This document shows, piece by piece, positions 1,130 to 14,722 of a DNA stretch of 32,058 nt. Numbering within the stretch: the stretch's first letter is position 1; each line of letters begins with the position of its first letter. Made by a program: the position numbers and the translations under genes. The stretch lies in NCBI GenBank assembly GCA_016212665.1, contig JACREZ010000021.1:1-32058 (forward strand), given 5' to 3'. The stretch comes from Ignavibacteriota bacterium (GTDB lineage Bacteria; Bacteroidota; Ignavibacteria; UBA10030; SZUA-254). Below the pieces are notes generated by a model. It was given only the letters and a program-made list of their open reading frames with translations. It was not told the DNA's origin and ran no database searches.

Positions 1130-1441
1130 ATGAATATTTCGGATATAATAGATTCAATTCACAACAACAAAGTGCGTGTGTCTGACCATGCTGATGAAGA
1201 ATCTATTGAGGATAACTTATCATTAAATGAAATACTATTTTCTGTTATTAACGGTGAAATTATTGAAGACTATCCAAACGATAAACCGTTTCCAAGTTGT
1301 TTGATTTTAGGATATAACAAAATAAAAGAACCAATACATAGTGTTTGGGCATACAACGAAATCAATAAATGGTCAGTATTGATTACTGTTTATCGTCCAG
1401 ACGAATTTTTATGTATTGATTATAGATTCAGGAGAACATAA
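1130..1441 (+). CDS. DUF4258 protein, probable toxin of a type II toxin-antitoxin pair
   Basis: This 103-residue protein starts MNISDIIDSIHNNKVRVSDHADEES and contains the SxHAxEEs segment near residue 18 and a late VLITVYRPD segment. Both are typical of DUF4258 proteins, which are related to the MqsR/RelE-like RNase fold. In many genomes DUF4258 genes are followed by a YgiT-type zinc-finger antitoxin, and that is the case here one base downstream. The toxin role is therefore inferred from family plus neighbour. The gene has a strong promoter directly in front but no Shine-Dalgarno sequence, which suggests leaderless translation. Its stop TAA at 1439-1441 almost touches the next ATG, so the two are surely co-translated. 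Confidence 0.75.
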   Translation: MNISDIIDSIHNNKVRVSDHADEESIEDNLSLNEILFSVINGEIIEDYPNDKPFPSCLILGYNKIKEPIHSVWAYNEINKWSVLITVYRPDEFLCIDYRFRRT

Positions 1442-1442
1442 C

Positions 1443-1691
1443 ATGATTCCATTTTCCGAATGCCCTGTTTGTGGAAACACAATGGTAGAAAAAAATGTAG
1501 AGAAACTTTTACGCGGTGGAACGAACACTGCAACTGTTAAAGTCAAGGCAGAGGTATGTCTCCATTGTGGTGAGCGACTCTATTCAAAAGAAACTATTCA
1601 TCAATTTGAAGACATTAGAAGGAAACTCGAACTTCGAGACACAAAAGAATTTTCGCGTGTTGGTGAGTCCTATACTGTTGCATTAACTTAG
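1443..1691 (+). CDS. YgiT-type zinc-finger protein, probable antitoxin
   Basis: The chosen ATG at 1443 is preceded by AGGAGA at 1430-1435, a good ribosome binding site lying inside the end of the toxin gene. An upstream in-frame ATG at 1416 would only add nine residues that overlap the toxin gene. The 82-residue protein has two CxxC pairs (CPVCGN near residue 7 and CLHCGE near residue 37), the zinc-binding N-terminus of MqsA/YgiT antitoxins. The GGTNTATVKVKAEVCLHCGE core is typical of single-domain YgiT-like partners of DUF4258. A helix-turn-helix half as in full MqsA is absent. The likely role is to bind and neutralise the upstream toxin. Confidence 0.78.
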   Translation: MIPFSECPVCGNTMVEKNVEKLLRGGTNTATVKVKAEVCLHCGERLYSKETIHQFEDIRRKLELRDTKEFSRVGESYTVALT

Positions 1692-1809: not shown

Positions 1810-3408
1810 TTACGATTCAGTATTCGAGACCAACGCCCCCAACGGCAACGCGGTTAATTCCTTTCTATCCAACTTTCCATCATACTCGATGAAGATATTT
1901 GAAAACTTTATCGGCACGGTCTCGGCGGCGAGGAATGGACCTTTCTGTCGTTGAATGTGAAGATGCGGAACAGGCGAGTAACCTGAATTGCCGCACACAC
2001 CAAGAACCTGTCCCGCTTTTACGTGGTCGCCGACATTGACCGTGAGCGAGCCATACTTGAAGTGACTGATTTCTGTAAACTCCGTCTCCGAATGTTGAAT
2101 GATGACATAGTTCCCCCAATTGTGAATCTCGTTCACGACACCCGGAGGATTATCCTGAATGTAATTCATTACGGCAATCACTCGTCCATCTGCGGGCGCG
2201 AGAACGGGTAATCCAAAGGCATAATAATCTTCCAGCGCCACGCCAAATCCTTTAAACTGTTTTGCTTCATTATCAAGCACAACAAAATCGTATGCGTATG
2301 CCTGCGTCCCTTTGTGTGTATGATGTCCGTGTTCTCCCTGATAGACGAACCATGTCCCGTAAAACGGTAACGAGTAGTGAACGTTACTTCGCTTGCCATG
2401 ATGTTCGAGATACCATTTCCTGTTTTGTTCAGGCGAATGAACTTTCGAGAGCGGCACGAGATACAACCCTGCACGCGATGTATAAAGTATTTGACTGCGA
2501 AGCGGATACATCATGATGAACATAACAATGTTGAACGGCGCGACAAGACTGGGAAGTCCGAACGGTTCAAGCATAGCGTTCAATCCGTTCACTACTAACA
2601 CGCCGATTGCAACTCCACTCGCAGCGTACAAATAACTTGAGAGATTCGGTGCGACGAAAAATCCTCCAAGCCCGATGCCAATGATGATGTAATTCAAAGC
2701 GGAAGAAAATGGTTGACCTGTGTTGATATCGCCGCCAATCCAGGTATGCAAAACAATTCCCAGAATCCCGCCGACCACGCCTGTCAGAAAAGAAATTCTG
2801 CTCATAATCAACAAACCGATTGCAACGAGAACTCCCGAATAAACGGACGGCTGAAAAAGAGTCGAGCCGAACGAAGTAAGAAAGGAATTCAGCCAATCAG
2901 GAAAAGCATCTGCCAATGTTTGATTGATTGAATCACTCAACCAGAATGGCTGAATGACAGCGTGCGGCGTTTCCTGATGAATTGATTTCAAAGCGAGAAG
3001 CACTGCCCACGTCGTGATGATGAACGGAATGCTGAGAATCGGCAACTGACGATTTCGTGTCAGCGAAGAAAGCAAACCGATGGCAATCACGGTCGAAAGC
3101 ACAATGCTAATGAGCAGGACAATGAGCGCTTCGGTAATTATCGGGACATACAAACCGACGCTGATACCAACAAGAAGCCCGTTGATTCCAAAAACTCCCG
3201 CCTGCAAATAATTTTTGTCCGTGTGAAGTAACGCCGCAACCGCATTCGCGCCGATATTTCCGAGCAGACCGAACAACCCGATGTACGGGTCGTAGAACGT
3301 CGCCGCAAGAAACAAGAGCGCGGGGATGTATCGCTCGGAGAAAAGCGTGTGTGCGTAACTCTTCAGAACGATACGAAAGAAATCGAGGAGAGCGTTTGGT
3401 CGCTCCAT
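1810..3408 (-). CDS. Urea-transporter-like membrane domain fused to an M23 (LytM) metallopeptidase
   Basis: The 532-residue protein has two parts. Residues 1-310 are a multi-pass membrane region with the urea transporter (UT) plan, including GxNGLLVG near 76-81 and two LPxxTxPF-like signatures, LPILSIPF (122-129) and LPSLVAPF (285-292). In both signatures the usual Thr is replaced (Ser, Val). Residues 340-500 are an M23 peptidase with zinc-ligand candidates H365 and D374 (HKGTQAYAYDF) and the HLH at 482-484, plus H449. M23 enzymes cut peptide cross-links, usually in peptidoglycan. The UT half may tether the peptidase or move a small amide. It is the last gene of the operon, nine bases after the decarboxylase-like gene, with AAGGCG before its ATG. 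Confidence 0.85.
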   Translation of the reverse strand: MERPNALLDFFRIVLKSYAHTLFSERYIPALLFLAATFYDPYIGLFGLLGNIGANAVAALLHTDKNYLQAGVFGINGLLVGISVGLYVPIITEALIVLLISIVLSTVIAIGLLSSLTRNRQLPILSIPFIITTWAVLLALKSIHQETPHAVIQPFWLSDSINQTLADAFPDWLNSFLTSFGSTLFQPSVYSGVLVAIGLLIMSRISFLTGVVGGILGIVLHTWIGGDINTGQPFSSALNYIIIGIGLGGFFVAPNLSSYLYAASGVAIGVLVVNGLNAMLEPFGLPSLVAPFNIVMFIMMYPLRSQILYTSRAGLYLVPLSKVHSPEQNRKWYLEHHGKRSNVHYSLPFYGTWFVYQGEHGHHTHKGTQAYAYDFVVLDNEAKQFKGFGVALEDYYAFGLPVLAPADGRVIAVMNYIQDNPPGVVNEIHNWGNYVIIQHSETEFTEISHFKYGSLTVNVGDHVKAGQVLGVCGNSGYSPVPHLHIQRQKGPFLAAETVPIKFSNIFIEYDGKLDRKELTALPLGALVSNTES

Positions 3409-3417
3409 CGCTTCGCC

Positions 3418-4764
3418 TTATGCTTTCAGATGATTGGGGACTTTATCCAACTGCTTGATGTATTCCATCGTCTCGCGTTCACGAACGAGATGCGGCTTTC
3501 CATCCGAAATCATTACTATCGCCGCTCTCGGTTGAATGAATTGCATACTTTGTGAAAAATTATACGCGCCGATATTTTTCACTACAACCAAATCGCCGCT
3601 TCTCAATTGCGGAAGAGAAATTGAAGAACGGACGCAATCAATCTGCATACAAAGCGGACCGTAAATGGAGGAATCTTCCATCGCAACTCCCCCCTCCTGC
3701 GCCGGTACAACATCATAACGATACCAGAACGACGAAAAGAGTTGATTGACTCCCGCGTCAATCACATACGACTTCGCGCCGGTTGAAAGTCGCTTCGCCG
3801 CATGAACTGTCGAAACCATGTGCATCGCTTCTTCAACGATGGAGCGACCGGGTTCGAGGAATAGCAACGGCGCTTCATTCGGCGTAAAGGGTCCGCGTAA
3901 TAACATTGGTCCGATGACTTCCGCGTATTGGTCGAACGTCGGACAGGTTTGACTTCCGGGCAAGTACGCTGTGTGCAATGTATTCGGCGCCGCATATCCG
4001 CCGCCAACATCCCAATACTGTAGTTTGATTTTTAATTCTTTGTTGATGAGATGATAGAAATTTACCAACTTCTCCGCCATCAAACGATAGGTTTCCACAT
4101 TGTCAATGTACGTTCCTGCGTGACAGTGCAAGCCGCGCACTTTCAACAAATCGTTACTCATCATTCGTTTGATTGCATCAAAGGCTTGCCCTGATTCAAC
4201 ATTGAATCCGAATCTATCCCACGGCGGATAGTTCAATTCCATGTTCACCCGCACACCGATTTCAATCTGCTTCTTCTGTTCACGAGCGATGTCTTCGAGT
4301 AAATACATTTCATCATACGAATCAATGTTAACCAAAGCACCTTCACTGATTGCCTTTTCAAGTTCTTTCTTGGTTTTGTACGGACCATTGAGAATAATTT
4401 GCTTTCCGGGGATGTTCAACGAACGAGCGATTTCATATTCAAAACCGGAAACAGTTTCCGCCCACGCTCCCTCTTTATGAAGCGTGGCGCAAATTGCATT
4501 CAAATAATTTGTTTTGTAGGAATACGAAATCTGCACTTTCGGATACCGGAGACTGAACGCACGTTGCATATCCCGATATTTTTTCCGTAATGTACTTTCG
4601 GAGACAACGTACAACGGCGAGCCGAATTTCTGAACCAATTCTTTCACCGCAACGCCGTCAATATGCGTCATCGGAAGTGTTCCTGGAGCGCGTCCGAATT
4701 TGTTTGATAAACCGACCGAGTGCCGGATGATTGTAGGTTTTTCGTAAAACTGTTTTTGAGGCAT
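3418..4764 (-). CDS. Type III-fold PLP-dependent decarboxylase, diaminopimelate decarboxylase-like
   Basis: The 448-residue protein has the alanine-racemase-fold barrel and C-terminal beta domain of LysA/ornithine-type decarboxylases. Visible landmarks are YSYKTN with the PLP lysine K84, HCHAGT at 213-218, GGGYAAP at 254-260, EPGR at 304-307, GPLC at 369-372 and GAYNFS near 399-404. DAP decarboxylases usually read C-E-S-x-D after GPxC; here it is CMQID, so the acidic substrate contact is missing. It carries about 30 extra residues before the usual start. Its operon partners are an ATP-grasp ligase and a PqqD-like protein rather than lysine genes. A modified amino acid or peptide substrate is therefore plausible, but this is inference. 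Confidence 0.8.
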   Translation of the reverse strand: MPQKQFYEKPTIIRHSVGLSNKFGRAPGTLPMTHIDGVAVKELVQKFGSPLYVVSESTLRKKYRDMQRAFSLRYPKVQISYSYKTNYLNAICATLHKEGAWAETVSGFEYEIARSLNIPGKQIILNGPYKTKKELEKAISEGALVNIDSYDEMYLLEDIAREQKKQIEIGVRVNMELNYPPWDRFGFNVESGQAFDAIKRMMSNDLLKVRGLHCHAGTYIDNVETYRLMAEKLVNFYHLINKELKIKLQYWDVGGGYAAPNTLHTAYLPGSQTCPTFDQYAEVIGPMLLRGPFTPNEAPLLFLEPGRSIVEEAMHMVSTVHAAKRLSTGAKSYVIDAGVNQLFSSFWYRYDVVPAQEGGVAMEDSSIYGPLCMQIDCVRSSISLPQLRSGDLVVVKNIGAYNFSQSMQFIQPRAAIVMISDGKPHLVRERETMEYIKQLDKVPNHLKA

Positions 4765-4873
4765 AAGTTTATTTCAGTGATAGTGTGTTATTAAACGGTC
4801 ATTAAATTGACGATTGACGATTGAGTCATTGTATCATTTTTAATAAATCGTCAATGATTCAATCGTAAATGAT
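4765..4873 (-). repeat. Intergenic cluster of the word TTGACGATT / AATCGTCAAT between operon genes
   Basis: The 109 bases between the ATP-grasp and decarboxylase genes hold the word ATTGACGATTGACGATTGAG (4805-4824) and its complement-like forms ATCGTCAATGATTCAATCGT and AATGATTCAATG further on (4847-4880). The arms could fold into an imperfect hairpin. Similar words recur inside the glycosyltransferase gene near 26570-26590. It is the only sizeable gap in an otherwise tightly packed gene run. Confidence 0.5.
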
Positions 4874-5929
4874 TCAATGATAAATGAGTTCTCCAAGCGT
4901 TGTTAAACTCTCGAGGTAGCTGATTGGGCAAACCAAATCTGTTGCGTGACGAACGAACGAAATTCCCGGTTGAGGCGGTGGCAACGGCTTTACTTTTTGT
5001 CCAAGCGCAAGATGAACAACGGTTGCCGGCAAATTCACATTCGCACCTGCCGAAAGATAAATCCACGACGGGAAGCGAGGATTAATTTCCACCAAATAAT
5101 ATTTTCCGGATTTCTGTTCTTTGAGAAACTCCAACTCGCATGGTCCACGCCACTTGAGAGCCTTAATGAGCTTTTCAGAAAGTTTTGTAAGAACAGCATC
5201 TTTGATTGTCACTCCTGCCCATGCTTTTCCTTTTTCCGTCAAACGAAGTTTTCGCATAGGCACCGCGCCAATGAGTTTTCCTGTTCCGCTTCCGACGCAG
5301 GCAACGTCATATTCTTCTCCTGCAAGATATTCCTGAACAATGATGGGTAATCCCCACTTTGCTTTCAATCGTTGGAAATTGATTACTGCTTCTTCCACTG
5401 TATAGGAAATGTACGCTTCGTAAAATGTTCCCTTCACGACGATCGGTGTCCCGAGTGTTTTGAACGCATCTGCCAACAACCGTGTATCGTTAATGGTGAT
5501 AGTTCTCGGACAAGAGATGCTATGCTTCTTGCAAAAATCTGAAAGTAACGCCTTCGACCGCAAACGAAACTGTTCTTCCGTAGGGAGAAACATTTTAATT
5601 CCCATCGAAGTCAATTCGGTTGATAAACGATTGACATTGGTAATTTCAGAATCAAGCGTCGGGATGAACACATCAATCGGAGTGCGTGAATGAATGTATT
5701 CGATACGTCGAAGTAACGCCTCCTCCCCTTCCGAAGGGTACGGAATGAGATACACTTCATCAAGCAAATCGCCGTCATAAATTCCCGTATCGAACGCGTC
5801 ATACGTCAAGCCGATAATCTTACCGATGTTTTTCAGTTCATGGCGTACGCTTCTGATAACAGGAATTCCCGGAGCGGGATTATCAGTTGCGTTCAATCCT
5901 GTAACTGCGATGTTAAGTTTCTTTGTCAT
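4874..5929 (-). CDS. ATP-grasp carboxylate-amine ligase
   Basis: The 351-residue protein opens with a Rossmann-like pre-ATP-grasp domain (LNIAVTGLNATDNPAPGIPVIRS), followed by the ATP-grasp fold. PIVVKGTFYEAY carries the nucleotide-binding lysine, IVQEYLAGEEYDVACVG is the hinge strand, and CELEFL with VEINPRFPSW holds the Mg2+/ATP-binding acidic and Asn residues. The layout resembles carbamoyl-phosphate-synthase/PylC-like single-chain ligases. Such enzymes join a carboxylate, through an acyl phosphate, to an amine. No substrate is evident. Its ATG overlaps the end of the FG-GAP gene by four bases, implying translational coupling, and a PqqD-like gene lies just beyond that. Confidence 0.83.
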   Translation of the reverse strand: MTKKLNIAVTGLNATDNPAPGIPVIRSVRHELKNIGKIIGLTYDAFDTGIYDGDLLDEVYLIPYPSEGEEALLRRIEYIHSRTPIDVFIPTLDSEITNVNRLSTELTSMGIKMFLPTEEQFRLRSKALLSDFCKKHSISCPRTITINDTRLLADAFKTLGTPIVVKGTFYEAYISYTVEEAVINFQRLKAKWGLPIIVQEYLAGEEYDVACVGSGTGKLIGAVPMRKLRLTEKGKAWAGVTIKDAVLTKLSEKLIKALKWRGPCELEFLKEQKSGKYYLVEINPRFPSWIYLSAGANVNLPATVVHLALGQKVKPLPPPQPGISFVRHATDLVCPISYLESLTTLGELIYH

Positions 5930-7869
5930 GGGCGATGTCCTCGAACAAATGTTTTCTTTGATAATTTCTGTTCATGTCTCTTTGAATGTATTCTAAGAGA
6001 TTGTTCCAACTTTGTTGGTTCTGTCATTCCGAATCCCGCTTTAGCGGGTGAGGAATCTCGAGTCAAATAATGATTTGAAATCAAACCGGAAGAATGTTTG
6101 GCTTGAAGAGTTGAAGTTTTCAAAATAATCTTTCCACTCCCGTTCGCCTTCAGCCAATATCCTTTTCCCGGTTCGATAATTTCGGTACTTGTGTAGCCTG
6201 AATTATATCCGAATACAGATGACTCAATCAAACCAATTGGTATCGTTGTGATTGATGAAACGGAAACTGAATCAGACACAGAGCCGATCATATTCCAACC
6301 GGAGAAAACATCATTTGTGTCTGTCAATAGTTCATAACCTGCTATTGCAACAGTTTCCGGTGTGGAGAATTTCAGCCAATATCCAACTCCAACCCGGAGT
6401 GAATCATTCTGATAATATCCTGTCTCTGAAAAGGCAAACGCAGACGATGTTGCTTTGGGAAAGAGTGAACTCGTTTTATTATCAATCACCAACGAAGGAA
6501 CAGAAACAATGTTCCATCCCGCGTTGATAGGAACAAAAACATTCTGACTTTGTTCAACGAAGAGTAACACCGGCTTATCCAAAGCAAAACTTGCCGAGGA
6601 AACAATCATATCGGGAACTCCGTCATCATCGAAATCTCCTGCGGCAATTTTTGTCGGACGAAAATATCCTTGGTCGTCTCCTGAAGTGTGGTCATCCGTT
6701 GTATCATCCATAAAAACAGTTGAGTATGAATAATTGTAAATATCATTCACTGCGCCGCCGAGATATTCACAACGATACACCGCTTCATTGTAACTTCCGG
6801 CAAGATACAGTTCGGGAACGCCGTTCGTATCCAAATCTGCTTTTGTCATCCCAACCATACCGTTGTACACATCATACTGAGCAAGCCAAACAAAATCTGC
6901 CGCAGTCATTTGGCTCACATCACCTGAATTCGTTGCAACAAACAATGCCCCGTTCGCCGTCAACATATACAATTCATTTGTAGCATCGTTATCAAAGTTT
7001 GCTTCGATAAAACCATCATTCACCAAATCAACATAGTAAGAAAGATTCTTTATGTTGACTGAAAGCGCGTAACTGTCCGCGCTTCCTGTGTTTTCATAGA
7101 TTGCAACACGAAGCGTATCCCAACCGGAAACGACAAGTTCTTTTCGATTGTCTTTGTCCAAATCGGTTGCGGCAAGCGAGTAACCAACGACAGATAACGT
7201 CGTGGAATCAACAAATTCAATTTGCCATGTCGGATTGAGGAGCGAATCATTCTGCAACGAAAAAATCATCACTTTACTTTTGTACGTGTCCCAACTTTCG
7301 ACAAACGAAACTGCGACTTCCTGTCGTCCGTCGTTATCTAAATCATTTGCGAGAATTGAACTTCCTTCTTGGAACCAATGTCCCAAACCAAAATCCCATG
7401 TCGTCGTCGGGACGAACGGGAAACCATTATCATATCCTTCCCATTCAAAAACATACAAGCCATGATATGTTGTATCAATCGGGTCGAGCAGACAGAGAAT
7501 TTCCTGACGACCGTTTCCATCCAAATCTGAGACCGTTACTGTGCTGTAATCATTCGAGTACGGATAGAGCGAATACCACCAAACGATTTGAAAACTATCG
7601 TTCCCAACCGCTTCGTAGAGATACAACATGTTGAAGTAATCACTGCTCCATTGTGTGCTGATGAGAAATTCTTTCTTTCCGTCCTGGTCCAAATCCAATT
7701 CCGATTGAACCATTGACCAGACAACGCTTGATGGGTCATAGCCTCCGGAATCCCACGGCGCGGTGAACCATCTCGGAACAAATTCATTTTGTGCTTTCAT
7801 AACTGCGGGCGTAAAAAGAAGCACTATAACTGCGAGGTTATAGAACACCAAACGCTCGTACCTGCTCAA
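5926..7869 (-). CDS. Secreted FG-GAP/VCBS repeat protein with GWN C-terminal domain
   Basis: I chose the TTG at 7867-7869 because GGAGGAG (7874-7880) lies just before it and the resulting start gives a proper signal peptide (SRYER, a hydrophobic stretch, then AVMKAQ). The ATG at 7911 would overlap the PqqD-like gene by 74 bases. The roughly 647-residue protein has at least five calcium-binding D-x-D-x-D/N-G/x loops (DLDQDGKKE, DLDGNGRQE, DLDNDGRQE, DLDKDNRKE, DFDDDGVPD), indicating an FG-GAP beta-propeller. Two GWN repeats follow (NAGWNIVSVP, FSGWNMIGSV). The last 45 residues come from an inserted repeat (6022-6063) and sequence beyond it, with no T9SS domain visible. It probably acts outside the cell or at the envelope. 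Confidence 0.8.
   Translation of the reverse strand: MSRYERLVFYNLAVIVLLFTPAVMKAQNEFVPRWFTAPWDSGGYDPSSVVWSMVQSELDLDQDGKKEFLISTQWSSDYFNMLYLYEAVGNDSFQIVWWYSLYPYSNDYSTVTVSDLDGNGRQEILCLLDPIDTTYHGLYVFEWEGYDNGFPFVPTTTWDFGLGHWFQEGSSILANDLDNDGRQEVAVSFVESWDTYKSKVMIFSLQNDSLLNPTWQIEFVDSTTLSVVGYSLAATDLDKDNRKELVVSGWDTLRVAIYENTGSADSYALSVNIKNLSYYVDLVNDGFIEANFDNDATNELYMLTANGALFVATNSGDVSQMTAADFVWLAQYDVYNGMVGMTKADLDTNGVPELYLAGSYNEAVYRCEYLGGAVNDIYNYSYSTVFMDDTTDDHTSGDDQGYFRPTKIAAGDFDDDGVPDMIVSSASFALDKPVLLFVEQSQNVFVPINAGWNIVSVPSLVIDNKTSSLFPKATSSAFAFSETGYYQNDSLRVGVGYWLKFSTPETVAIAGYELLTDTNDVFSGWNMIGSVSDSVSVSSITTIPIGLIESSVFGYNSGYTSTEIIEPGKGYWLKANGSGKIILKTSTLQAKHSSGLISNHYLTRDSSPAKAGFGMTEPTKLEQSLRIHSKRHEQKLSKKTFVRGHRP
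6022..6063. repeat. Interspersed palindromic repeat fused into the FG-GAP gene 3' end
   Basis: The segment contains TGTCATTCCGAATCCCGC, then TTTA, then GCGGGTGAGGAATCTCGAG, with a CCCGC/GCGGG stem. This is the style of TGTCATTCC... repeats scattered between genes in many FCB-group genomes, and a relative (TGTCATGCCGAAC...) lies at 24681. Here it is read through in frame as SSPAKAGFGMTE. Confidence 0.7.
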
Positions 7870-8098
7870 GGAACTCCTCCAAATCTTTTTGTGCGATTGA
7901 TTCTCCGACATCGAAGGTTGATGTCAGCGCTTTAATTGTTGCAGGGGCTGATTCTCCATCCATCAAATGCTTGAGGATAAGTCCACCTGTTGAGTTAACA
8001 GTGTAGGTCAACCCCGTAACATGGTCGAAGAGGAAACCATTTGGTGTGAGGGTAATTTCTTCTTTCAAATTTCTTTGTGTTTGAATTGAACTTGCCAT
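7838..8098 (-). CDS. PqqD family protein (HPr-rel-A-type PqqD-like peptide chaperone)
   Basis: The ATG at 8096-8098 gives 86 residues. A longer upstream frame to 8272 would overlap the preceding gene by 167 bases and looks like an antisense-style artefact. The core GFLFDHVTGLTYTVNSTGGLILKHLMDGESAPATIKALTSTFDV...DLEEFLEQVRAFGVL matches the PqqD plan: a beta hairpin ending in a G-x-x-Y-x-x-N segment, then a winged-helix trio ending in L-x-x-L/F-x-x-x-G-V/L-L. PqqD proteins and related RRE domains bind the leader of a peptide substrate and present it to modifying enzymes. Here an ATP-grasp ligase and a PLP decarboxylase follow in the operon. No precursor peptide was recognised, so a role in peptide modification is inference. 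Confidence 0.8.
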   Translation of the reverse strand: MASSIQTQRNLKEEITLTPNGFLFDHVTGLTYTVNSTGGLILKHLMDGESAPATIKALTSTFDVGESIAQKDLEEFLEQVRAFGVL

Positions 8099-8105
8099 AA
8101 CAATT

Positions 8106-8564
8106 TTATTGATGTGAATAAGAAAACGTTCCTGATTTATACACGAGCAATTCGTCGAGATGAAACCCGCTCTTTCCGCACCAGTAGCAATCCTCGATTG
8201 TGCACTCGTTTTTATATACTTTCTTTCCCCAGACTGCCGCCTCGAACGAACCGCCGACAAATTTCTTCCCAACTTTAATCACTTTATCTGATGTTTCTCC
8301 ATTTAATTCGATTTGCTGATGCTCTCCATCTTTCAGCGCATCTTTCACTGTCGCGGGATAAAGCGAAACTCCAAGATAAACTTTTTTCTTGTTTGATTTC
8401 ACATCGAATGTAAGTTTGGTCGGAACTGCCGAGTCATAATCAAACGAAACTTCCGTTGTCAACGTCGTTCCGTTTTGATTTGATGTCTTCGATTCTTGCA
8501 CATACACACTGCCGGCAAAAATCAAGAGACCAAAAAGTAAAAACAGAATTTTATAATTCTTCAT
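8106..8564 (-). CDS. Small exported protein of unknown function with a Cys pair
   Basis: The 152-residue protein starts MKNYKILFLLFGLLIFAGSVYVQ, a clear signal peptide, so it is probably periplasmic or outer. It contains repeated beta-strand-like segments (TLTTEVSFDYDSA, KLTFDVKSNKKKVYLGVSLYPA) and ends with KNECTIEDCYWCGKSGFHLDELLVYKSG, where three cysteines sit close together (CTIEDC, CYWC). AAAGGAT lies at a good distance before the ATG. I do not recognise a family. It stands 13 bases after the OMP gene and 7 bases before the PqqD-like gene, so it belongs to the operon. It could be the substrate or an accessory of the downstream modifying enzymes, but nothing proves this. Confidence 0.7.
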   Translation of the reverse strand: MKNYKILFLLFGLLIFAGSVYVQESKTSNQNGTTLTTEVSFDYDSAVPTKLTFDVKSNKKKVYLGVSLYPATVKDALKDGEHQQIELNGETSDKVIKVGKKFVGGSFEAAVWGKKVYKNECTIEDCYWCGKSGFHLDELLVYKSGTFSYSHQ

Positions 8565-8577
8565 AAGTTATCCTTTG

Positions 8578-9477
8578 TTAAAATGAATATCGAAAACCGA
8601 TTGAACCGTAGGTGATAGTGTAACTATCGAATGTATCATACTCGAACGACGGAGCGATGTTGAAATTTTTCGTAATGCCGATTGTTCCTCCGAGCATGTA
8701 GCCGCCGGTTTGTACTTCAGGTTGATTGTAGAGAAGCAGTAAATCTTCATCGAAATAAAATGTTCGTCGTCCGAATCCTACCGAAACATTCATGCGTGTA
8801 TATTTTCCGAGCGATACGTTTATGTTCTGCCGGACAAAGAGAAAGTTGCCAGCCCATTTCGAATCAGAAGCAATTGCAGAAGTCGTTATCCAAATTCCGG
8901 AGCCGAGATTGTAAATGAAATGCCCGGAATAATTATTCACAGCATAATCGGATGTAGTTGTTGATTGATTTCTGCCATTTCCTCTTGATGTGTTCGTTTC
9001 GCTGATTTGAATCGCGCCGGAATATGTAAATCCGACAGATGCATCATAGTTCAGCCAATAGCCGAAACTTCCTCCGAACGCATGAAAGATAAAGGGGTTA
9101 GAAATATCTTCGATTTCGCTCTGGTAGTTGTAGGAATAAAACAACGCTCCGCTTACACGATTCCCCAAACGCATCGAACCTTTTCCAATGAAAGCGTACT
9201 CAGAAAAATAATTCAGACCGACATCGTCTCTCGAAAATGAAAGCCAATGGTAACCGAAAGTATAGAAATTCTTCTTCTGGTGTTCGAGCGTAAGAAACGT
9301 ATTCACGGATTTTGATACGGTCGCAGTTGAATAGGAGCCATACGAATAAAACACAGATGAATGGATTCGTACATCCGATTGTGCAGATTCATTCGTTTGC
9401 CTTGAAGAGGAACGATTGGTTTCGTCCTGTCCGAACATAACGCTGTTGAAAAATATAATGAAGACTATGATGAACAA
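8578..9477 (-). CDS. Outer membrane beta-barrel protein
   Basis: The protein consists mostly of alternating amphipathic strands with many aromatic residues (SSVFYSYGSYSTATVS, ALFYSYNYQ, YTITYGSIGFRYSF) and ends in Phe, the mark of an outer membrane barrel. The start is uncertain. The only upstream initiator in frame is TTG at 9475-9477, with no ribosome binding site. The leader it gives (FIIVFIIFFNSVMFGQ) is hydrophobic but lacks the usual basic N-terminus, so the 5' end may be frameshifted or mis-sequenced. It is the first gene of the minus-strand run down to 1810 and presumably provides an outer membrane channel or anchor for that system. Confidence 0.7.
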   Translation of the reverse strand: MFIIVFIIFFNSVMFGQDETNRSSSRQTNESAQSDVRIHSSVFYSYGSYSTATVSKSVNTFLTLEHQKKNFYTFGYHWLSFSRDDVGLNYFSEYAFIGKGSMRLGNRVSGALFYSYNYQSEIEDISNPFIFHAFGGSFGYWLNYDASVGFTYSGAIQISETNTSRGNGRNQSTTTSDYAVNNYSGHFIYNLGSGIWITTSAIASDSKWAGNFLFVRQNINVSLGKYTRMNVSVGFGRRTFYFDEDLLLLYNQPEVQTGGYMLGGTIGITKNFNIAPSFEYDTFDSYTITYGSIGFRYSF

Positions 9478-9632: not shown

Positions 9633-10886
9633 TTATTTACTCAACAACATCTTCTTCACTTCGATGAAAGAACCTGCTTGAAGTTTGTAGAAATATATTC
9701 CGCTTGGAAAACCTGTTGCATCCCATTCAATGCTGTGTTCACCCTTCGTTTTCTTTTCATGAACCAACGTTGCTACTTCTTTCCCTAAAATATTGAATAC
9801 TTTGAGTGAGACGAATCTGAAATCCGAAATCCGAAATCTAAAATCAGTTTTGGGGTTAAACGGATTCGGATAATTTTGATATAAATGAACAGAAGCGGGA
9901 ATGTTTTCATCATCATGTATGCCAGTCGGAGTTTCCCCACCATTCACTGTCTTTAATATCATTCCACCGGAGCCAACAACCCAGCCGGTATCACTATTCA
10001 CAAAGAAAACCGAATTGAAAACTCGTCCAGCTGTTTTTGTCGGAAGACTTTTCCATGTTCTTCCTCCATTAATTGATTTTACTACCGTGTCGGAGGGAGA
10101 ACCGACGGCATATCCTTCGGTTCGATTAATAAAATGGACATCATTAAGAAAGGACATTTGAGAAGCGTTATTGGAATTCCAATTTGTTCCGCCATCCGAT
10201 GTCCAGTAAATTCCGTTTCCATCTCCGCTTGCCCATCCTACAGAATCATCCGTGAAAAAGATACTTCGATTCGCGGCATAACTCTGATAAATCCAATTAG
10301 TTCCGCCATCAGTCGTATGAAGTATTCTTCCGTTGTTTGCTGTCACCCATCCGTTTATGGAATTGGGAAAATGTACTGAGGTAAAATACTGAGTCCTGTC
10401 ATCAAATAACGTTTGTGTCCATGAAGCGCCTCCATCATTCGTTGAATACACAACCGACTTTGTTACATCACCAACAAATTGTCCCACAACATAGCCGTAA
10501 GAATTATCGGTGAACACAATACCGTTGAAAGTATTATTAACAGGAATTCCGTGATTGGTATTTGTCCATGTGGTTCCACCATTTGTTGTTTTTCGAATAA
10601 CATTGTTGTTCCCGCACACCCAGCCCAATGATACGGAGACAAACACAACCGAATTCAAAGTCTCAGTCGTGCCGGATGTTTGGTCGTTCCAAACGCTTCC
10701 TCCGTTCGTTGTTTTGAGGATAACTCCCCCCTCACCCGCAGCATAACCAACCAACTTATTGGCAAAAAATACTGACCTCAAATTGCTCGAAGTCCCGCTG
10801 TTCTGAGAAAACCATGGTTCCTCGGCAATCAGCGTTAATGAAGAAGCAAGTAATAAAATTAAAAATCGAGTAAAATAACTTTTCAT
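9633..10886 (-). CDS. Secreted YCF48/BNR-repeat protein with T9SS sorting domain
   Basis: The 417-residue protein has a signal peptide (FLILLLASSLTLIAEE), then seven-bladed-propeller-type repeats of the form GYAAGEGGVILKTTNGGSVWN, GWVCGNNNVIRKTTNGGTTWT and GWVVGSGGMILKTVNGGE, typical of YCF48/photosystem-assembly-like and sialidase-like BNR repeats. The end is a type IX secretion sorting domain: HLYQNYPNPFNPKT, then FNILGKEVATLVHEKK, GFPSGIYFYKLQAG and a basic tail VKKMLLSK. It is exported by the T9SS and probably anchored at the surface. The usual strand after NPFNP is replaced by DFRFRISDFRF, encoded by a short repeat (9813-9846). A sigma-70-like promoter is visible upstream. Confidence 0.88.
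   Translation of the reverse strand: MKSYFTRFLILLLASSLTLIAEEPWFSQNSGTSSNLRSVFFANKLVGYAAGEGGVILKTTNGGSVWNDQTSGTTETLNSVVFVSVSLGWVCGNNNVIRKTTNGGTTWTNTNHGIPVNNTFNGIVFTDNSYGYVVGQFVGDVTKSVVYSTNDGGASWTQTLFDDRTQYFTSVHFPNSINGWVTANNGRILHTTDGGTNWIYQSYAANRSIFFTDDSVGWASGDGNGIYWTSDGGTNWNSNNASQMSFLNDVHFINRTEGYAVGSPSDTVVKSINGGRTWKSLPTKTAGRVFNSVFFVNSDTGWVVGSGGMILKTVNGGETPTGIHDDENIPASVHLYQNYPNPFNPKTDFRFRISDFRFVSLKVFNILGKEVATLVHEKKTKGEHSIEWDATGFPSGIYFYKLQAGSFIEVKKMLLSK
9813..9846. repeat. Short tandem word (GAAATCC) inside the T9SS domain coding region
   Basis: AATCTGAAATCCGAAATCCG and the following bases repeat a 7-base word (AAATCCG) with slight variation. On the coding strand it reads GATTTCGGATTTCGGATTTC, giving alternating Phe/Arg/Ser/Asp residues. 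The same kind of word occurs in the glycosyltransferase insert at 26515-26616. Confidence 0.55.
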
Positions 10887-11911: not shown

Positions 11912-14722
11912 ATGAAAAAATTGTACCTTATCATGTTGCTGAGTCTTCTCAGCCTTCAAGTCTATTCTCAAACTGCCGATCTTACTGGCAAAATCATTGA
12001 CAGCAAATCGAAAAAGCCCATCATTGGCGCGCATGTCAAAATAACCCATCGGAGAGATACGACTCAAACTCATATCATGCCTTCCGATACGAATGGGAAT
12101 TTTCTATTTTCAAACATTCGGTTTGGCGGATACTCGCTTGATGTTTCTTCAATCGGGTATGCAAAATTTACTAAGTTTGTCCGGGTTACTGAGACAAGTG
12201 TCAATGCAGGCGAACTCGAATTGACAGAGACAGAAATTCCTGTTGATGAAATGGTCGTTGAGGAAATGGCTCCCCGAACATTTCAAAAAGGAGATACGAC
12301 AGAGTTTAATGCGCGTGCATTCAAACTCAACAAAGATGCGGTTGCAGAAGACCTTGTGCAAAAAATGCCGGGCGTGACGGTCGAACAAGGAACCGTAAAA
12401 GCACATGGAGAAGAAGTGAAACGTGTGATTGTGGACGGTAAACAATTTTTTGGAGATGACCCGACACTTGCTTTGCGGAATCTTCCTGCTGAGGTTGTGG
12501 ATAAAATTCAAATATTCGATAAGCAAAGCGACCAGGCACAGTTTACCGGATTCGATGACGGGCAAGCGGTGAAAACCATGAACGTGGTTACACGTCCTGA
12601 ACGAAGAATAGGAACGTTCGGAAAAGCGTATGCTGGAATTGGTGATGCGGGGAAATATATTGGCGGAGGAAACCTCAACCACTTTCAGCAAGGAACGCGA
12701 ATATCTATTCTTGGACTTTCAAACAATATTAACCAACAAAATTTTTCGCAACAGGATTTGGTCGGAGTGATGGGGGGCGGCGGTGGCGGACGCGGTGGTG
12801 GTGGCGGAGGAGGAGGAATGGGCGGAATGCGGTTTGAACGCGGCGGTGGTGGTGGTGGTGGCGGCGGACAATTTCAAGGTGGATTCGGTGGGAGTAATTT
12901 TCTCGTCGGTCAACAAAACGGAATTGCATCAACAAACTCATTCGGTGTAAACTACTCCGATAATTGGGGAGAGAAACTTTCTGTTCAACACAGTTACTTT
13001 TTCAACCGGACACAAAATAACAATTTGCAAAATCTGCAAAGGCAATATTTCACTTCGTCTGATTCGACACGGACGTACGACCAATTTTCTGACGCTGAAA
13101 CGAAGAACTTCAATCATCGCCTTGAGATGCGATTTGAATACACGATTGACACGATGAACTCTCTCATACTTCAGCCACGTTTATTTTTTCAGGATAACAA
13201 CTCGTCAAGTTATCTCTTCGGCAGTACCATGTTGAATGATTCGTTGCTCATTAACAATACCATTACTGACAACAACTCAAACACAACGGGAAATAATCTT
13301 TCAAATCAATTAACATTCAGACACAGATTTGAAACTACAGGACGGACTTTTTCTATTGAATTAAGAAATAGTTTTAACAATCGAGAAGGGACAGGAAACA
13401 ATACTTCTGATGTTACATATTATCATAACAATGGAAACCTAAAACCAATCATTAATCAACATACAACGACGAAAACCGATGGCTCATCAATATCTTCTCG
13501 AATTGTTTATACTGAACCTATCGCTGAGAACACACAACTTCAAATTTCTTACAATCCGTCCTTCTCGAAAAGCAACGCCGATTACAGGAGATTTAATCTT
13601 GATTCTTCTACATACTCCTATTCGCAGCTAGATACAACGCTTTCAAATCAATATGAGAATACATATACGACACAAAACGCGGGTGTTGCCTACCGATGGC
13701 GTGATTCTTCGATTAATTTGAATCTTGAAATGTCTTATCAGATTTCCGACTTGGAGGGCGGACAGGTGTTTCCGTTCACTTCTTCAACAAAGAAAATATT
13801 CTACAATCTTCTCCCATCTGCGTTCATGCAGTACAAAATTTCCGAAACGAAGAACCTCCATACATATTACCGGACTTCAACGCGTGAACCTTCAATAAAT
13901 CAACTGCAAAATGTTGTTGATAATTCAAATCCACTTTTGCTTACTTCAGGGAATCCGGATTTAAAACCGTCTCTTACGCATACATTGATGTCTCGATATT
14001 CCCTCACAAGCATTGATAGAACAAAGAGCACATTTCTCATGTTCATGACATCCCTGACAAATAATTATATCGGTAACTCAACGATTACCAATGCAAGTGA
14101 TCTTCTTGTACCAACCGGAGTGCAACGTACTACTCCGGTCAACCTTGATAATTCTTGGAACGCCCGCACATTCATAACACATGGTATTCCATTTGAAGTC
14201 ATCAAAAGCAATCTCAATATGAACGCGGGCTACACATTTTCTCAAACTCCCGGACTCATTAACAATGTTGAGAACATCACGAGTACATCGGGAATTAATG
14301 CAGGCGTCGTTGTCAGCAGTAACATCAGCGAGGACCTGGATTACACACTTTCCTATTCCGGCAATTACAATATTTCCCGCAACTCGTTGCAGGAAGAATT
14401 GGATAACAATTATTACTACCACAACTCCGGTTTGAAATTCAATGCAACATTTTGGGAGAGTTTAGTTTTACGAAATGAATTGACGAACATGCTCTACAGT
14501 GGTTTGGGCGATGCGTACAACCAAAACTATTGGTTATGGAATCTCAGTCTCGGTAAAAAGATATTCGACAATCAAAACGGAGAAATCCGCCTCACCATTA
14601 CCGACCTGCTCAACCAAAATACAAGCGTCAATCGCTCAGTGACTGAAACCTACGTCGAAGATTCGAACAATCAGGTACTTGGAAGATATTTGCTGTTGAT
14701 GTTTACTTATACGCTACGGTAA
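11912..14722 (+). CDS. TonB-dependent receptor-like outer membrane protein with a polyglycine loop
   Basis: The 936-residue protein has a signal peptide (LYLIMLLSLLSLQVYSQ), then a carboxypeptidase-regulatory-like domain (ADLTGKIIDSKSKKPIIGAHVKI...GGYSLDVSSIGY). A plug-type region follows (LNKDAVAEDLVQKMPGVTVEQGTVKAHGEEVKRVIVDGK), and the rest is a large beta-barrel with many aromatic strands ending FTYTLR. This matches the OMP_b-brl_3/TonB-dependent receptor layout of Bacteroidota. Residues about 287-327 are almost only Gly with some Met, Arg and Phe, which is unusual within the start of a barrel. No classic TonB box was identified. The ligand is unknown; the paired lipoprotein upstream suggests a joint surface complex. 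Confidence 0.82.
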   Translation: MKKLYLIMLLSLLSLQVYSQTADLTGKIIDSKSKKPIIGAHVKITHRRDTTQTHIMPSDTNGNFLFSNIRFGGYSLDVSSIGYAKFTKFVRVTETSVNAGELELTETEIPVDEMVVEEMAPRTFQKGDTTEFNARAFKLNKDAVAEDLVQKMPGVTVEQGTVKAHGEEVKRVIVDGKQFFGDDPTLALRNLPAEVVDKIQIFDKQSDQAQFTGFDDGQAVKTMNVVTRPERRIGTFGKAYAGIGDAGKYIGGGNLNHFQQGTRISILGLSNNINQQNFSQQDLVGVMGGGGGGRGGGGGGGGMGGMRFERGGGGGGGGGQFQGGFGGSNFLVGQQNGIASTNSFGVNYSDNWGEKLSVQHSYFFNRTQNNNLQNLQRQYFTSSDSTRTYDQFSDAETKNFNHRLEMRFEYTIDTMNSLILQPRLFFQDNNSSSYLFGSTMLNDSLLINNTITDNNSNTTGNNLSNQLTFRHRFETTGRTFSIELRNSFNNREGTGNNTSDVTYYHNNGNLKPIINQHTTTKTDGSSISSRIVYTEPIAENTQLQISYNPSFSKSNADYRRFNLDSSTYSYSQLDTTLSNQYENTYTTQNAGVAYRWRDSSINLNLEMSYQISDLEGGQVFPFTSSTKKIFYNLLPSAFMQYKISETKNLHTYYRTSTREPSINQLQNVVDNSNPLLLTSGNPDLKPSLTHTLMSRYSLTSIDRTKSTFLMFMTSLTNNYIGNSTITNASDLLVPTGVQRTTPVNLDNSWNARTFITHGIPFEVIKSNLNMNAGYTFSQTPGLINNVENITSTSGINAGVVVSSNISEDLDYTLSYSGNYNISRNSLQEELDNNYYYHNSGLKFNATFWESLVLRNELTNMLYSGLGDAYNQNYWLWNLSLGKKIFDNQNGEIRLTITDLLNQNTSVNRSVTETYVEDSNNQVLGRYLLLMFTYTLR
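12771..12892 (+). repeat. Low-complexity GGN-rich segment coding polyglycine
   Basis: GGC/GGT/GGA codons run in two long tracts interrupted by a short Met/Arg/Phe-containing stretch. The tracts lie inside the receptor gene and keep its frame. Such codon runs are prone to slippage and length variation. Confidence 0.8.

Follow-up and report, generated by a model that had tools for sequence, protein, structure and literature searches.

A 32,058-nt stretch of contig JACREZ010000021.1 of an Ignavibacteriota bacterium (the whole stretch is hereafter called the window) contains a cassette of seven genes that a sequence-only reading had described as co-directional and as a candidate peptide- or amino-acid-modifying system. 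All seven were found on the minus strand, between positions 9477 and 1810. The names given to their products were backed by family searches using Pfam, except that p152 had no match and the outer-membrane protein (OMP) produced just a chance-level match. Read along the minus strand, the genes are ordered as follows:

8578..9477, minus strand: OMP, an outer-membrane β-barrel-like protein belonging to the envelope arm, with an uncertain TTG start
8106..8564, minus strand: p152, an exported-looking 152-aa protein without a Pfam family, which marks the window's subtype
7838..8098, minus strand: PqqD-like (RRE-type) protein of 86 aa, core gene 1 (Pfam PqqD, 8e-10)
5926..7911, minus strand: FG-GAP-repeat protein, accessory and non-core (Pfam FG-GAP_3, 4e-19)
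4874..5929, minus strand: ATP-grasp ligase of 351 aa, core gene 2 (Pfam ATPgrasp_Ter, 2e-16)
3418..4764, minus strand: pyridoxal phosphate (PLP) decarboxylase of the alanine-racemase (AR) fold, core gene 3 (Pfam Orn_Arg_deC_N, 1e-31)
1810..3408, minus strand: fusion of a urea-transporter (UT) domain with an M23 domain, 532 aa, core gene 4 (Pfam UT, 6e-56; M23, 4e-14)

The intergenic distances in this order are 13, 7, -74, -4, 109, and 9 bases. The earlier description of the gaps as mostly under 15 bases or small overlaps held for most junctions, but not for the 109-base gap or the 74-base overlap of the FG-GAP and PqqD-like genes. The latter hinges on the choice of the FG-GAP start, which is itself uncertain.

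Recurrence of the core genes

The conserved core of the cassette consists of the PqqD-like protein, the ATP-grasp ligase, the PLP decarboxylase, and the UT-M23 fusion, accompanied by envelope proteins, and the grouping is far beyond chance. The four core genes occurred in the same order in seven loci of relatives (L029 and L032-L037), with identities as low as ~30%, and part of the core was present in two others (L030 and L031). A profile search using an ATP-grasp alignment over the contigs of 84,980 species genomes gave at least 585 pattern matches, of which at least 486 encoded a relative. Counts over 80 loci given below refer to the best 80 ATP-grasp loci of these relatives. A search of the contigs of the 84,980 genomes with the window's UT-M23 protein alone found no relative. 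Labels attached to the 80 loci, nearly all of which are metagenome bins whose individual taxon labels may be wrong, included Bacteroidota (with Ignavibacteria and Flavobacteriia), Neomarinimicrobiota, Myxococcota, Deltaproteobacteria, Cloacimonadota, Planctomycetota, and Armatimonadetes.

By automatic counting, 76 of the 80 loci had PqqD, 78 had the decarboxylase, and 69 had the UT domain, which was accompanied by M23 in 65; the shortfalls are mostly due to contig ends. The decarboxylase was present in 78 of 78 assessable loci (the other two end at the ATP-grasp gene), as was the UT domain in 69 of 69 (the other 11 have ≤103 bases left), and in the four UT loci without M23 the contig ends inside UT. 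PqqD was found in 77 of 79 assessable loci, being undetected only in L046 and L048; this count excludes L061, whose contig starts just 130 bases before the ATP-grasp match, and includes L071, which the automatic position rule had missed. Four contigs occur in both sets of loci (L029 = L045, L031 = L046, L033 = L067, and L037 = L077), and the 79-row counts include duplicates.

Whether the genes are neighbors elsewhere had been set beforehand as a test of the sequence-only reading, and the core recurred in the relatives, as did three of its four genes in an even sample of 395 genomes from the window's phylum. In this sample, these three, the ATP-grasp ligase (E ≤ 1e-40), the decarboxylase (E ≤ 1e-90), and UT-M23 (E ≤ 1e-50), were each sought separately. 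Positive genomes numbered 33, 33, and 34, respectively. The additional UT-M23 genome (G024) has a match confined to the M23 part, and the remaining positives were the same 33 genomes for all three genes. As judged from coordinates compared by eye, the three genes lie in the same order and on the same strand in 33 of 33 genomes, mostly within 150 bases of one another. The longest gaps were ~710 bases in G176, where another open reading frame (ORF) intervenes, and ~440 bases in G063, where the UT and M23 parts occupy two reading frames, probably owing to a frameshift. The intervening ORF of G176 (L187:6003-6482) lies between the decarboxylase and UT-M23 genes and encodes 159 aa that appear GIY-YIG-like by eye.

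Apart from the window, only the sister contig (L029 = L045) was seen to have the FG-GAP gene between PqqD and ATP-grasp. Some of the loci have FG-GAP-related proteins in the vicinity of the cassette. L108 and L122 have a secreted-looking protein of ~260 aa inserted between the ATP-grasp and decarboxylase genes. No PADLOC model of known or candidate anti-phage defense (E up to 0.001) matched six of the seven proteins, i.e., all but the FG-GAP protein, and a defense-system reading was rejected on this basis.

Decarboxylase, ligase, and PqqD-like protein

The sequence-only reading had called the decarboxylase diaminopimelate (DAP) decarboxylase-like. The cassette enzyme scored 244 bits against the LysA model TIGR01048, below its cut-off of 297.9, whereas a true LysA encoded elsewhere in the same genome (G000:C4) scored 475 bits. 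The two proteins are 25.6% identical. Phylogenetic analysis, from which decarboxylase ORFs outside 420-480 aa were dropped, placed 79 cassette decarboxylases in a single clade apart from 30 LysA rows with a support of 0.94; one LysA row branched apart from the other 29. Without duplicates, these sets comprise 75 and 29 distinct sequences, and the genome's own LysA is present twice (L001 and L165). The PLP lysine K84 and the catalytic C372 were kept in all 79 rows (75 distinct sequences). At residue 373, beside the catalytic cysteine, Met was found in 75 of 75 cassette copies vs. Glu in 29 of 29 LysA sequences; at residue 344, 66 cassette copies have Thr and nine have Ser, vs. Arg in every LysA. 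LysA and lysine biosynthesis were ruled out by the cut-off, the tree, and the active-site residues, and the sequence evidence indicates that the cassette decarboxylase is an enzyme of its own.

Among solved structures, the best match was FigC (7kh2; 314 bits), followed by the best DAP decarboxylase (245 bits) and BtrK (163 bits). The score against the NCBIfam FslC model was 214.7 bits, under its cut-off of 500. According to the FigC report (PMC7857480), the substrate of FigC is N-citrylornithine. The same report states that an acidic residue beside the cysteine touches the side-chain amine of the substrate and that an Arg in the specificity helix of DAP decarboxylases contacts a carboxylate of diaminopimelate; FigC has Met355 and helix threonines in place of these residues, and its His357 is proposed to contact citrate (PMC7857480). 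BtrK, which acts on carrier-bound glutamate, and MccE, which acts on a microcin C intermediate, are described there as relatives acting on large conjugates (PMC7857480). We infer from the alignment that the specificity-helix Arg corresponds to residue 344 in cassette numbering. Since the two recognition residues are replaced in a FigC-like manner, and FigC is the nearest solved relative, the substrate of the cassette enzyme likely has a masked side-chain end.

In the ATP-grasp ligase, residues K126, K166, E206, K227, E265, E267, E281, N283, and R285 were each present in 77 of 77 sequences. Its scores fell far under the cut-off of every NCBIfam family matched, and matches to solved structures were weak, with carbamoyl phosphate synthase being the best. 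Grouping of the decarboxylase or the ligase with lysine or purine biosynthesis orthologs, which would have counted against the sequence-only reading, was not observed. The PqqD-like protein matched Pfam PqqD above the cut-off and fell below every NCBIfam PqqD-type cut-off; the best of these models was that of lasso-peptide PqqD (45 bits vs. a cut-off of 70). PqqD-like proteins are known as peptide recognizers.

Membrane fusion, envelope arm, and neighboring genes

The UT domain of the fusion is full-length and scored 190 bits against a Pfam cut-off of 25, and 145 bits against the NCBIfam urea-transporter cut-off of 274.6. It has conserved motifs in common with solved urea transporters, whereas a glutamate in the repeat motif of the solved bacterial urea channel is not conserved. 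In the M23 domain, H365, D374, H439, H449, H482, and H484 were invariant in 65 of 65 distinct sequences; H365, D374, H449, H482, and H484 we take to be the M23 metal-site pattern. This sequence set was biased toward long forms, as L061 and L106 (overlong ORFs) were dropped along with sequences of <600 aa other than L029, L030, and L047. On the UT loops that lie on the side of the two termini, positive charges were three times denser than on the other loops (0.157 vs. 0.053 per residue, with loop borders set by hand from hydropathy and the known UT fold), and the bias was seen in 64 of 65 distinct sequences, L056 being the exception. By the positive-inside rule, this charge pattern predicts a cytoplasmic M23 domain. 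A stand-alone M23 relative in L014, which is 45-46% identical over the domain, starts with what appears by eye to be a lipoprotein-like signal. In L185 (positions 5944-8198; a single-contig genome), the UT and M23 parts lie in two overlapping reading frames. This split gene was considered as evidence for a soluble, signal-less M23 protein and set aside, since it looks like a single-genome frameshift and is probably one.

Most relatives of the fusion have an additional C-terminal domain that is absent from the window. In 32 of 33 sampled genomes, UT-M23 extends past position 640 of a 717-position profile; the window's protein alone stops at 529, and short forms also occurred in L045, L047, and L054 among the 80 loci. 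The predicted fold of this domain in L077 (pLDDT 93; 50-row alignment) matched LolA/LprG using Foldseek with E ~1e-3, probabilities of 0.98-1.00, and TM-scores near 0.3. With VIA-align, the best LolA row had a Z of 8.6 (root-mean-square deviation 3.3; 123 aligned residues) and porins scored as high (Z 9.0). A sequence search of solved structures with the domain gave nothing convincing. From the predicted model, we tentatively regard it as LolA/LprG-like.

Relatives of p152 were found upstream of the core in 10 of the 80 loci, although some of the remaining loci are short upstream. The sequence-only reading had favored the 152-aa protein as a precursor peptide. This candidate was rejected, as p152 consists of a conserved domain preceded by a signal-like N-terminus, was found in just those 10 loci, and is repeated within the proteins of L048. 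The latter locus (L048:4945-7728; labeled Planctomycetota) has, directly upstream of ATP-grasp, two proteins in which p152 domains are repeated as judged by eye, and no PqqD was detected there. Searching solved structures with the p152 sequence gave nothing convincing. Among the 59 loci with ≥800 bases downstream of UT-M23, an exported TPR protein followed UT-M23 in all 53 without p152 and in none of the six with p152; no locus carried both. There are two envelope subtypes, one with p152, to which the window belongs, and one with the exported TPR protein. In the ATP-grasp tree, for which ORFs outside 330-380 aa were dropped, 10 of the 11 tips of one clade have p152 and the remaining tip, L046, is without it. 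Because the p152 sequences fall in one clade, the Fisher value for the association of p152 and TPR is not independent evidence, and the swap may represent a single evolutionary switch.

Homologs of the OMP adjoin the cassette in 20 of the 80 loci. In many TPR loci, the TPR protein has a long C-terminus that was taken as a barrel, and the window's OMP matched a profile of the TPR-barrel-like protein with a probability of 92.8 and an E-value of 4e-7; the underlying barrel alignment is a diverse one, with sequences 16-49% identical to the OMP of the window. The TPR protein of L060 weakly matched the models of the TPR-barrel export porins PgaA and BcsC through its TPR part. These matches (27 and 23 bits) are far under the cut-offs, the core is without a glycan synthase, and the window's subtype is without a TPR protein.

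Several other genes were noted around the cassette. Next to it, on the plus strand of the window (1130-1691), two overlapping small genes resemble a toxin-antitoxin-type pair: one encodes a DUF4258 protein (E 2e-22), the other an MqsA-like antitoxin whose match (E 2e-4) stayed below the cut-off. The gene immediately upstream of the cassette (9633-10886, minus strand) encodes a YCF48/BNR-repeat protein that has a type IX secretion tail; in the relatives' loci, matches to it fall mostly on this tail. The plus strand at 11912-14722 encodes a 936-aa outer-membrane β-barrel protein, which has glycine-rich runs and an N-terminus of the carboxypeptidase-regulatory-like type. In other loci, proteins of 278-358 aa that form one family and have a secretion-tail-like C-terminus are encoded directly upstream of PqqD (L058, L062, L066, L068, L078, L081, L082, L085, L088, L089, L096, L103, and L105). 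In the L058 member, the one that was tested, a type IX tail was recognized along with an FG-GAP match that narrowly missed the cut-off. An AraC-type regulator is found upstream of PqqD in L093, L101, L102, L108, L109, L111, L113, L122, and L185, LytTR-type response regulators (a cluster of 19 loci, one of which was tested with Pfam) occur near other loci, and multicopper-oxidase-like genes, which led to a copper link being considered, were noted by eye kilobases upstream in L056 and L105.

Possible roles of the cassette

We tentatively propose, with a confidence a little short of even, that the cassette encodes a cytoplasmic line in which an amino acid is ligated and, once bound, decarboxylated, and from which the product is fed to a channel/peptidase and then to an outer-membrane arm. 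The PqqD-like protein would present a substrate, which may be a peptide, a protein, or a carrier, in the cytoplasm. As suggested by its fold, the ATP-grasp ligase would join an amino acid to the presented substrate via an amide or similar bond. The decarboxylase, judging from its active-site residues, would then strip the α-carboxyl while the side-chain end of the amino acid stays attached to the larger group, i.e., an α-decarboxylation of a conjugated amino acid in the manner of FigC, BtrK, and MccE. The product would reach the M23-bearing membrane protein of the UT type, to be trimmed or passed through there, and on the outside the outer-membrane barrel would handle it, together with p152 in the window's subtype and with the exported TPR protein in the other. 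The nature of the substrate, the order of the steps, and the direction of transport are inferred. The enzymes would fit the earlier idea of an amide-bond-forming, amino-acid-modifying system, and the sequence-only reading as a whole was partly supported.

Several observations weigh against this proposal. The largest gap is that no gene for a substrate, carrier, or precursor was found by inspecting core gaps of 120-2000 bases and clusters of ORFs near the cassette. No conserved precursor ORF was seen by eye in those gaps, in agreement with the sequence-only reading, which had seen no obvious precursor (shorter gaps, and short ORFs elsewhere, were not searched), and no small protein besides p152 stood out among the clusters of ORFs of ≥60 aa. 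PqqD went undetected in the two assessable loci named above. The UT fold is known for urea, and transport of the product by it is a proposal. Evidence on which side of the membrane the M23 domain faces is conflicting, since the positive-inside rule places it in the cytoplasm and the nature of the domain would suggest export. Lastly, the position of FigC His357 is Ile375 in 79 of 79 cassette rows; therefore, citryl chemistry is not implied.

The main rivals are cell-wall modification and the maturation of a ribosomally synthesized and post-translationally modified peptide (RiPP). In the former, a peptidoglycan precursor would receive an amino acid from the ligase, the decarboxylase would convert this residue into an amine, and a periplasmic M23 domain would later cut or remodel the links so formed. 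M23 enzymes usually act on wall peptides, the stand-alone M23 relative of L014 has a lipoprotein-like signal, and the extra C-terminal domain of relatives tentatively resembles LolA/LprG, a fold known from exported proteins such as LolA. On the other hand, in 64 of 65 distinct sequences the C-terminus falls, as judged from the UT loops, on the positive, presumably cytoplasmic side, PqqD-like proteins are known for recognizing peptides, and a patchy spread (33 of 395 genomes) would be odd for a basic wall function. We consider this explanation unlikely. The same charge pattern, which puts M23 on the cytoplasmic side, would suit a RiPP-like pathway in which PqqD binds the leader of a precursor encoded elsewhere, the ligase and decarboxylase modify its core, and M23 removes the leader at the membrane. 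In RiPP pathways, a recognition element may be paired with a protease as well as a ligase, and the nearest model to the PqqD-like protein is that of lasso peptides. Set against this are the lack of a conserved small ORF in the core gaps of 120-2000 bases and of any conspicuous small protein beyond p152 among the nearby ORFs of ≥60 aa, and RiPP maturation likewise seems unlikely to us.

A metallophore pathway, in which the decarboxylated conjugate would be a secreted metal chelator as in the FigC, SbnH, or AcsE pathways, is suggested by FigC, the rhizoferrin enzyme, being the nearest solved decarboxylase and by the AraC-type regulator upstream in nine loci, whose Cys-rich N-terminus resembles a metal-binding motif by eye. 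Pfam saw only a helix-turn-helix in the three regulators tested, however, and the proposed citrate-contact residue of FigC is not conserved. In addition, no siderophore receptor or synthetase of the NRPS-independent siderophore (NIS) type was found among recurring neighbor clusters, whose representatives were judged by eye. This role is quite unlikely. More improbable by far is a part in urea or nitrogen metabolism, with a urea channel served by accessory enzymes: the UT domain is clear and shares motifs with solved urea transporters, but its score is below the NCBIfam cut-off, the repeat-motif glutamate, a residue with a role in the solved bacterial channel, is not conserved, and no urease was noted by eye among the recurring neighbor clusters.

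Parts of the cassette resemble known systems. The butirosin system likewise pairs an ATP-grasp ligase with an AR-fold decarboxylase (carrier BtrI, ligase BtrJ, and decarboxylase BtrK), BtrJ being the ATP-grasp side of the pathway. By this analogy, the combined action of the two enzymes on a bound substrate has a precedent in BtrJ/BtrK. BtrK is of the same family as the cassette decarboxylase, although FigC matches better, and the cassette has a PqqD-like protein in place of an acyl carrier protein; we know of no Btr counterpart to UT-M23 and the outer-membrane arm. FigC and FslC share with the cassette decarboxylase the Met beside the catalytic Cys and the absence of the DAP decarboxylase-type Arg, and differ from it at the citrate-contact His357 and, for FslC, in a model cut-off that the cassette enzyme does not reach. 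The Pfam match of the PqqD-like protein is shared with PqqD and lasso-peptide PqqD; unlike those systems, the cassette was without a radical-SAM or lasso-cyclase gene among recurring neighbor clusters (by eye), and no precursor was found. A full-length UT domain is shared with dvUT, UT-A, and UT-B, from which the cassette protein differs by its C-terminal M23 fusion, usually followed by another domain. To our knowledge, there is no precedent for the PqqD partner, the UT-M23 protein, or the envelope arm. No description of the cassette was found in the open-access literature (a scope outside which most subscription papers and preprints fall), in line with the earlier statement that no system with this gene set was known, and none of the family models matched names the four-gene unit.

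It is conceivable, albeit doubtful, that the cassette represents a new and widespread envelope-spanning system, in which a PqqD-guided ATP-grasp/decarboxylase pair would modify a cytoplasmic peptide or protein and a channel bearing a zinc peptidase at the cytoplasmic face, a site not known to us for M23 enzymes, would trim it and pass it to the outer-membrane barrel. The joint presence or absence of three core genes in 395 genomes, and the occurrence of PqqD in 77 of 79 loci under several phylum-level labels, imply that the cassette must serve a specific role. From the cassette follows a testable prediction, namely a decarboxylated amino-acid conjugate, and UT-M23 provides a channel and a zinc peptidase that are fused in nature. 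A function other than the annotated one may apply to many of the genes labeled urea transporter, diaminopimelate decarboxylase, or PqqD.

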